Shown: positions 31,458 through 31,986 of the stretch, one piece after another
Numbering within the stretch: position 1 is the first letter of the stretch
Layout: every line of letters starts with the position of its first letter
Notes under the pieces: model-generated
Told to the model about the DNA's origin: nothing
The model's input: the letters and a program-made list of their open reading frames with translations, nothing else
Database searches by the model: none
DNA from: Campylobacteraceae bacterium
GTDB taxonomy: Bacteria > Campylobacterota > Campylobacteria > Campylobacterales > Sulfurovaceae
Length of the DNA: 36,110 nucleotides
Reading direction: 5' to 3'
Assembly: GCA_027024155.1 (NCBI GenBank)
Contig: JALVTE010000056.1
Coordinates: forward strand, 1 to 36,110
Translations under genes and position numbers: made by a program

Positions 31458-31548
31458 AAAACCTCTTTTTTGAGAGAAATTATATCCATATTATAATAAT
31501 AAACTATAGTTATATCTTAAATAAGCTTATTTAGATATACTAATGTCA

Positions 31549-31986
31549 ATGAAAAAAGAAGAGTATTTTACACTATTTGTCATATTAACAGTGTTATGTT
31601 ACGGTCTCTATTTATATGTAAATAGTAGCAAAAAGAGTAGATCTAAGCCTTTAGTATATAAGAGTACTAAAAAAGTTATTAAAATAGATAAAAACTTAAC
31701 TCAAGAGAGTATTATAAATTATATAGAGAATGTGATAAATAATGGTTCTAACCATTTGAACTTTCAAAAAGGTGGAATGGAGGGCGGTTATGTGCCAAAA
31801 GATAAGGCTAGAGATGTTGCTTATTATGTTTATGAATTAAGTGGTAAAAAAGCCAATAAGCCCTATTCCAAAGATGCTTCGTTATACTTTAGTAGTAACT
31901 GTGCAGGTTGTCACGGTACTAATGGAAAAGGAATAAAAGGCTCCTATCCCGATTTAACCAAAATTGTAAATAGAGTAACCCGTTAA
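31549..31986 (+). CDS. Membrane-anchored c-type cytochrome with unusual motif order
   Basis: I start at the second ATG (31549), two codons in. A membrane anchor (YFTLFVILTVLCYGLYLYV) is followed by a soluble part. The haem motif CAGCH (C120, C123, H124 in the longer numbering) is near the C-terminus and followed only by GTNGKGIKGSYPDLTKI. Upstream lies NYIENVINNG...GGMEGGY with Met79 and then ARDVAYYVYELSG, which looks like the Met-ligand and last helix of a class I cytochrome. The halves are therefore in reversed order: either circular permutation or parts of two haem domains. It overlaps the convergent phosphoribosyltransferase gene by 4 nt. Confidence 0.75.
   Translation: MKKEEYFTLFVILTVLCYGLYLYVNSSKKSRSKPLVYKSTKKVIKIDKNLTQESIINYIENVINNGSNHLNFQKGGMEGGYVPKDKARDVAYYVYELSGKKANKPYSKDASLYFSSNCAGCHGTNGKGIKGSYPDLTKIVNRVTR

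Follow-up and report, generated by a model that had tools for sequence, protein, structure and literature searches.

The gene at positions 31543–31986 (+ strand) of the window (the whole stretch of 36,110 nucleotides that was analysed) raises the question of what a cytochrome c is in which the methionine half comes before the haem half. In class I cytochromes c, His and Met are the axial ligands, and the first and last helices pack together, with the chain ends near one another. An earlier note had described the inverted order here, with the protein ending about 24 residues past the haem site, and both observations were confirmed: GGMEGG, ARDVAYYVYELSG and CAGCH are found in that order, and 23 residues follow His124. 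The frame described there, 31549–31986, is the reading from the second in-frame ATG of an ORF of 147 aa that opens at 31543. The second of these ATGs (31549) is the probable start, since near relatives open with MKKEEYF (L035), MKKVELF (L007) and MKKEEF (L010). Residue numbers count from 31543, Met79 being Met77 when counted from 31549. With 44 intact relatives of the same layout, the ORF was assigned as the gene of a putative permuted, membrane-anchored monohaem cytochrome c.

As read from its sequence, the protein is arranged as anchor, Met half and haem half, with every element of a class I domain present once (all coordinates on the + strand). The predicted N-terminal hydrophobic anchor (residues 8–26, 31564–31620; best 19-residue hydropathy 1.96; helix 5–33 in a low-confidence AlphaFold2 model) is separated by a variable lysine-rich stretch from a helix, T53–G68 (31699–31746; helix 54–68 in the same low-confidence model), that follows the haem half in a normal class I domain and has the invariant Y60 and G68 in it and S69 behind. 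Met79 (31777–31779), in GGMEGG, is the presumed distal ligand of the haem iron, a role suggested by the class I family. It is followed by the C-terminal helix of the class I domain, K86–L99 (31798–31839; helix 86–99 in the low-confidence model), which takes its normal class I place once the halves are put back in order. The linker between the former C-terminus and the former N-terminus (residues 100–109, 31840–31869), delimited from the sequence, corresponds in the profile alignment to the position of the inter-domain linker of CcoP, and leads to the N-terminal helix of the class I domain (residues 110–118, 31870–31896; helix 110–118 in the low-confidence model). The haem c attachment site, C120-A-G-C123-H124 (31900–31914), is the sole CxxCH, and PDLT (136–139, 31948–31959), with the invariant P136 and L138, lies behind it. 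The predicted permutation cut falls after PDLT, where a normal chain would continue to the helix at 53–68. AlphaFold2, with two models on two sequences each, gave mean pLDDT values of 63.9 and 56.2 (low confidence), and searches with Foldseek and VIA-align using the first model, uninformative at this confidence, returned no cytochrome c match.

Taken as it is, the protein matches Pfam Cytochrom_C over the haem half only (31.5 bits, cut-off 21.3; profile positions 7–36 of 90). Residues 55–140 align with positions 147–235 of the NCBIfam model ccoP (TIGR00782), across both CcoP domains, at 38.8 bits (cut-off 179.95), and no Pfam or NCBIfam model among those listed covered its whole length. Because the Pfam score is over its cut-off, the ccoP match runs across the junction and relatives of the same order occur in many genomes, chance likeness can be excluded.

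Relatives are widespread in one order of the Campylobacterota. Matches at E ≤ 0.001 were present in 48 of the 60 genomes searched with the protein, its own included, and those listed were mostly short proteins like that of the window or CcoP-type proteins. When a 23-member profile was run against a phylum sample of 298 genomes, 21 genomes (own included) had a window-type protein at E ≤ 1.1e-36, a seemingly broken copy in genome G175 scored 3e-25, and the other matches listed, from 1.6e-23 upwards, were ORFs of 253–316 residues matched over the CcoP junction. Within the own family, 40 of 100 genomes had a match at E ≤ 1e-24, counting the own genome, G175 and an 88-residue ORF in G350. With the three genome searches pooled, members span 13 numbered genera and 6 numbered families. 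An identical sequence is present in G004, of the window's own genus, and the nearest relative, L035 (identical with L006), belongs to a MAG of Nitratifractor, a genus of Sulfurovaceae, Campylobacterota. No relative was found in a scan of viral contigs, and the matches in G013 and G016 were set aside as monohaem proteins that, by eye, have the ordinary order.

The set used for comparison started from 65 ORFs over the threshold that were distinct in their last 60 residues. Nineteen with two or more CxxCH (CcoP-type and others) were dropped, as were the seemingly broken G175 copy (L058) and L085, a contig-end copy of L022, leaving 44 members; seven own-family matches (G376, G373, G341, G355, G347, G346 and G350) are outside this set. 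In the G175 region L095 (G175:C52:1–2500), the reading frame retains no more than the tail of the C-helix and the haem half, and this copy looks broken.

All 44 distinct intact members have one CxxCH apiece and keep the chain order helix, Met, C-helix, N-helix, CxxCH instead of the class I order N-helix, CxxCH, Met, C-helix. Ten residues are invariant throughout the set: Y60, G68, S69, M79, C120, C123, H124, G130, P136 and L138. The expectations that orthologues would show the same order and that Met79 would be conserved were thus borne out, and orthologues extending as full dihaem proteins, which would have spoken against the permuted reading, were not seen, a second CxxCH occurring in 0 of the 44. 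The distance from the Met to the first haem Cys is 39–42 residues in every member, and 23–49 residues follow the CxxCH. A C-terminus altered by frameshift or misassembly is unlikely, L035 ending alike and all 44 stopping within that range past the haem site. For the one pair compared, the window protein with L035, dN/dS (Nei-Gojobori; dS about 1) was 0.04 in the haem domain (residues 50–142) and 0.52 in residues 3–49; purifying selection on the haem domain is strong.

A hydrophobic N-terminal segment (hydropathy 1.29 or more) was present in 43 of the 44 members, L139 having no anchor in its open frame, and a lipobox-like motif in two. Both features speak for a domain held on the membrane, on its outer side. 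Positive charges were seen by eye behind the anchor in many members, and the outward orientation is not clearly favoured by them. Two further cysteines, at the positions of residues 94 and 104 (codons 31822–31824 and 31852–31854), were found together in 31 members and were both missing from 13, the window protein among them, but never occurred singly. Since they occur only as a pair, a periplasmic disulfide from the C-helix to the joining linker is suggested for the members that have them.

If the domain is permuted, moving the haem half ahead of the Met half restores the class I order. With the order so restored, the match of the window protein to Pfam Cytochrom_C rose from 31.5 bits over the haem half to 41.0 bits over positions 7–88 of 90, with Met79 inside the full-length match. 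A second member reached 36.4 bits (6–88 of 90), and a third still gave a half match, at 28.0 bits versus 24.2 in natural order, so that a full-length Pfam match was obtained after rotation for two of the three members tried. When scored with a CcoP domain 1 profile, the window protein went from 29.6 to 51.4 bits on restoring the order and the mean best score of 23 members from 26.8 to 37.5 bits; 16 of the 23 restored members spanned both halves and seven remained half matches. These seven have 33–41 residues after CxxCH, versus 23–30 in the 16 others, and the longer tail may be what breaks the restored match. Against CcoP domain 2, restoring the order brought no change (mean 32.4 natural, 32.2 restored). 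In phmmer searches of PDB sequences, the natural order scored higher (32.7 bits) than the best of the restored order (28.0 bits), because the natural order runs along CcoP across its junction.

This junction also points to the origin of the family. In a profile-profile comparison, the family and CcoP gave one alignment of 90 columns (probability 99.7%, E 1.1e-26) that takes in the rear half of CcoP domain 1, the inter-domain linker and the front half of domain 2. The next alignments were those of the haem half with domain 1 (E 1e-6) and of the Met half with domain 2 (E 0.019). Each half is thus closest to a different CcoP domain, the Met half to the first and the haem half to the second, as would follow from retention of a single stretch of a tandem dihaem protein. 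The distance from Met to Cys in 32 CcoP-type ORFs (duplicates included) is 32 in 20 of them and 43–45 in 12. An unrooted tree was made from 75 junction segments in 89 columns (44 members, 28 CcoP-type proteins and three long forms described below). The 44 members make up one side of a branch with support of 97/90, found in 98% of 200 bootstrap trees, with the CcoP-type proteins and the long forms opposite. As the tree is unrooted, derivation of the permutant from the CcoP type is an inference. An ancestor with two haem domains in tandem would have shed the front half of domain 1 and the rear half of domain 2, and this parent may have been any CcoP-like tandem dihaem protein. The alternatives raised by the earlier note, a permuted monohaem domain or a fragment of a dihaem protein, merge, the sequence corresponding to that of a CcoP-type dihaem protein minus the flanking halves; a fragment in decay found no support.

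We consider it probable that the protein holds a class I cytochrome c domain which has undergone circular permutation in nature, by trimming of a tandem dihaem protein, and that it serves as a membrane-tethered electron carrier in the periplasm. The permutation would have arisen by duplication and trimming of the tandem ancestor, with the old inter-domain linker now joining the former C- and N-terminal helices. The chain would close as a single monohaem domain, with His124 and Met79 as the likely axial ligands, and the N-terminal anchor would hold it on the outer face of the inner membrane. Haem would be attached outside the membrane by a CcsA-type system; a protein matching PF01578 (Cytochrom_C_asm, 136.8 bits) is encoded in the same genome. 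Tethered in the periplasm, the product would carry one electron at a time, probably in a respiratory chain feeding the cbb3 oxidase.

The same sequence as for the closed monomer would be expected if each Met half packed with the haem half of a neighbouring molecule, so that an obligate domain-swapped dimer or a chain on the membrane was formed. Cytochrome c is reported to undergo three-dimensional domain swapping (PMC8565734). The linker corresponds to what in CcoP is a spacer of two separate domains, and the spacing from Met to Cys is nearly fixed. On the other hand, to judge from cytochrome c structures, a linker of about 10 residues could in principle join the ends of one domain, and we regard the swapped form as unlikely.

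Less likely still is a dedicated accessory of another complex, e.g. the cbb3 oxidase, in which a domain of the partner would complete or pack against the half-domains. The likeness to the CcoP junction and the presence of a CcoP gene in the same genome would fit this, but the single chain contains a complete set of class I domain parts, and the genomic locations do not point to such a partner. The COX1-type genes of the genome are on contigs C23, C35 and C20; one of the three adjoins CcoP, in a cbb3-type COX1–CcoP cluster on C23, whereas the permuted gene is on C56. It sits there between a phosphoribosyltransferase gene and genes whose products have no Pfam match, and the near neighbours also include an acetyl-CoA synthetase-like enzyme and a methyltransferase; no oxidase family was detected among the six near neighbours in the window. 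The neighbourhood changes among relatives. The window and L035 have common neighbours and other genera have different ones, with TrxC and a carboxynorspermidine synthase-like protein in one group and, by eye, beta-propeller-like and lipoprotein-like proteins (no NCBIfam match) in another. No conserved operon partner was seen among 20 fetched stretches, the window and L035 (the gene itself was clustered in 21 of these 22 neighbourhoods, the L078 copy having been missed by gene calling), and since the neighbourhood varies no partner is named.

CcoP-type haem domains were also met in other fusions. In L093 (G003:C13, 423–1949), a CcoP with FixP_N and two haem domains is fused to an OmpA domain (PF00691, 80.1 bits), and the same fusion was read by eye in L092 (G006:C22); the joining stretch is rich in Ala, Lys and Glu in both, and such a fusion might tie the oxidase to the cell wall. 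L091 (G026:C19, 438–1631) joins oxidase subunit II, COX2, to two CcoP-like haem domains in one chain (PF00116, 64.2 bits; PF13442; PF00034). L094 (G058:C4, 2–1687) is a long protein with an open start and a CcoP-like dihaem pair at its end, ahead of which about 390 residues have no Pfam match at E ≤ 0.01.

A functionless, decaying fragment of a dihaem protein, which the partial match to both CcoP domains and the apparently broken relative in G175 might suggest, is highly improbable, as against it stand 44 of 44 intact members with invariant ligands, the haem-domain dN/dS of 0.04 and the spread over 6 numbered families.

A second type of protein with a similar junction was found in three genomes (G026, G036 and G357), the only ones of 100 with near-full-length matches to it. 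These proteins of about 345–370 residues, L089 (G026:C15:5161–6192), L090 (G036:C30:1616–2674) and L102 (G357:C16:88545–89588), have, by eye, a hydrophobic segment at each end and, in the order seen in the window protein, a Met half, a linker and a single CxxCH. Their Met half is like that of CcoP domain 1. One of the three matches Pfam Cytochrom_C over 55 residues (127–181, profile positions 8–61 of 90), and the sequence past its haem site may partly resemble the normal continuation. The three are possibly a second, separate type of cytochrome with permuted order. In the tree, their junctions are placed at two separate points within the CcoP side, which suggests that excision occurred more than once, their long branches making the placing unsure. 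With some reserve, we are inclined to think that the window protein belongs to a long-kept natural permuted family whose likely parent, the CcoP junction, is present in the same genomes, and that the same excision has been repeated. If so, the junction of a tandem dihaem protein is a ready-made permuted module, excised by evolution at least twice.

Folding studies have a textbook model in cytochrome c, whose N- and C-terminal helices are held to pair at an early step. A natural permutant in which these helices are joined by a short linker would test whether helix pairing or chain order governs the fold. It would also show with unusual clarity how duplication and trimming can produce a permutation, since the tandem parent type is still present. 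The window protein shares with the class I cytochrome c domain (PF00034/PF13442) the CxxCH, the helix before it, PDLT, the Met loop and the C-terminal helix, once each, but has the halves swapped and the termini joined. With CcoP/FixP, the dihaem subunit III of the cbb3 oxidase, it shares the continuous 90-column junction alignment. Unlike CcoP, which has two CxxCH sites, each of the 44 members has one, and the window protein has one haem and lacks the front half of domain 1, the rear half of domain 2 and any FixP_N segment (PF14715, no match at E ≤ 10); it scores below the TIGR00782 cut-off, and it falls in a separate clan in the tree.

Globin and cytochrome c folds are not known to be related by descent. 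Among haem proteins, the nearest natural case found is androglobin, which is reported to have a domain with swapped part order and a disulfide that supports the haem pocket. The likeness lies in the swapped order of domain parts; unlike the window protein, androglobin has a globin fold and is a metazoan multidomain protein. Among the papers listed in literature searches, whose range left out most subscription journals, none described a cytochrome c domain permuted in nature. A circularly permuted cytochrome c555 has been engineered (Oda et al. 2018, cited in PMC8565734); its chain is likewise permuted, but it was made in the laboratory, whereas the family of the window protein is natural and conserved.
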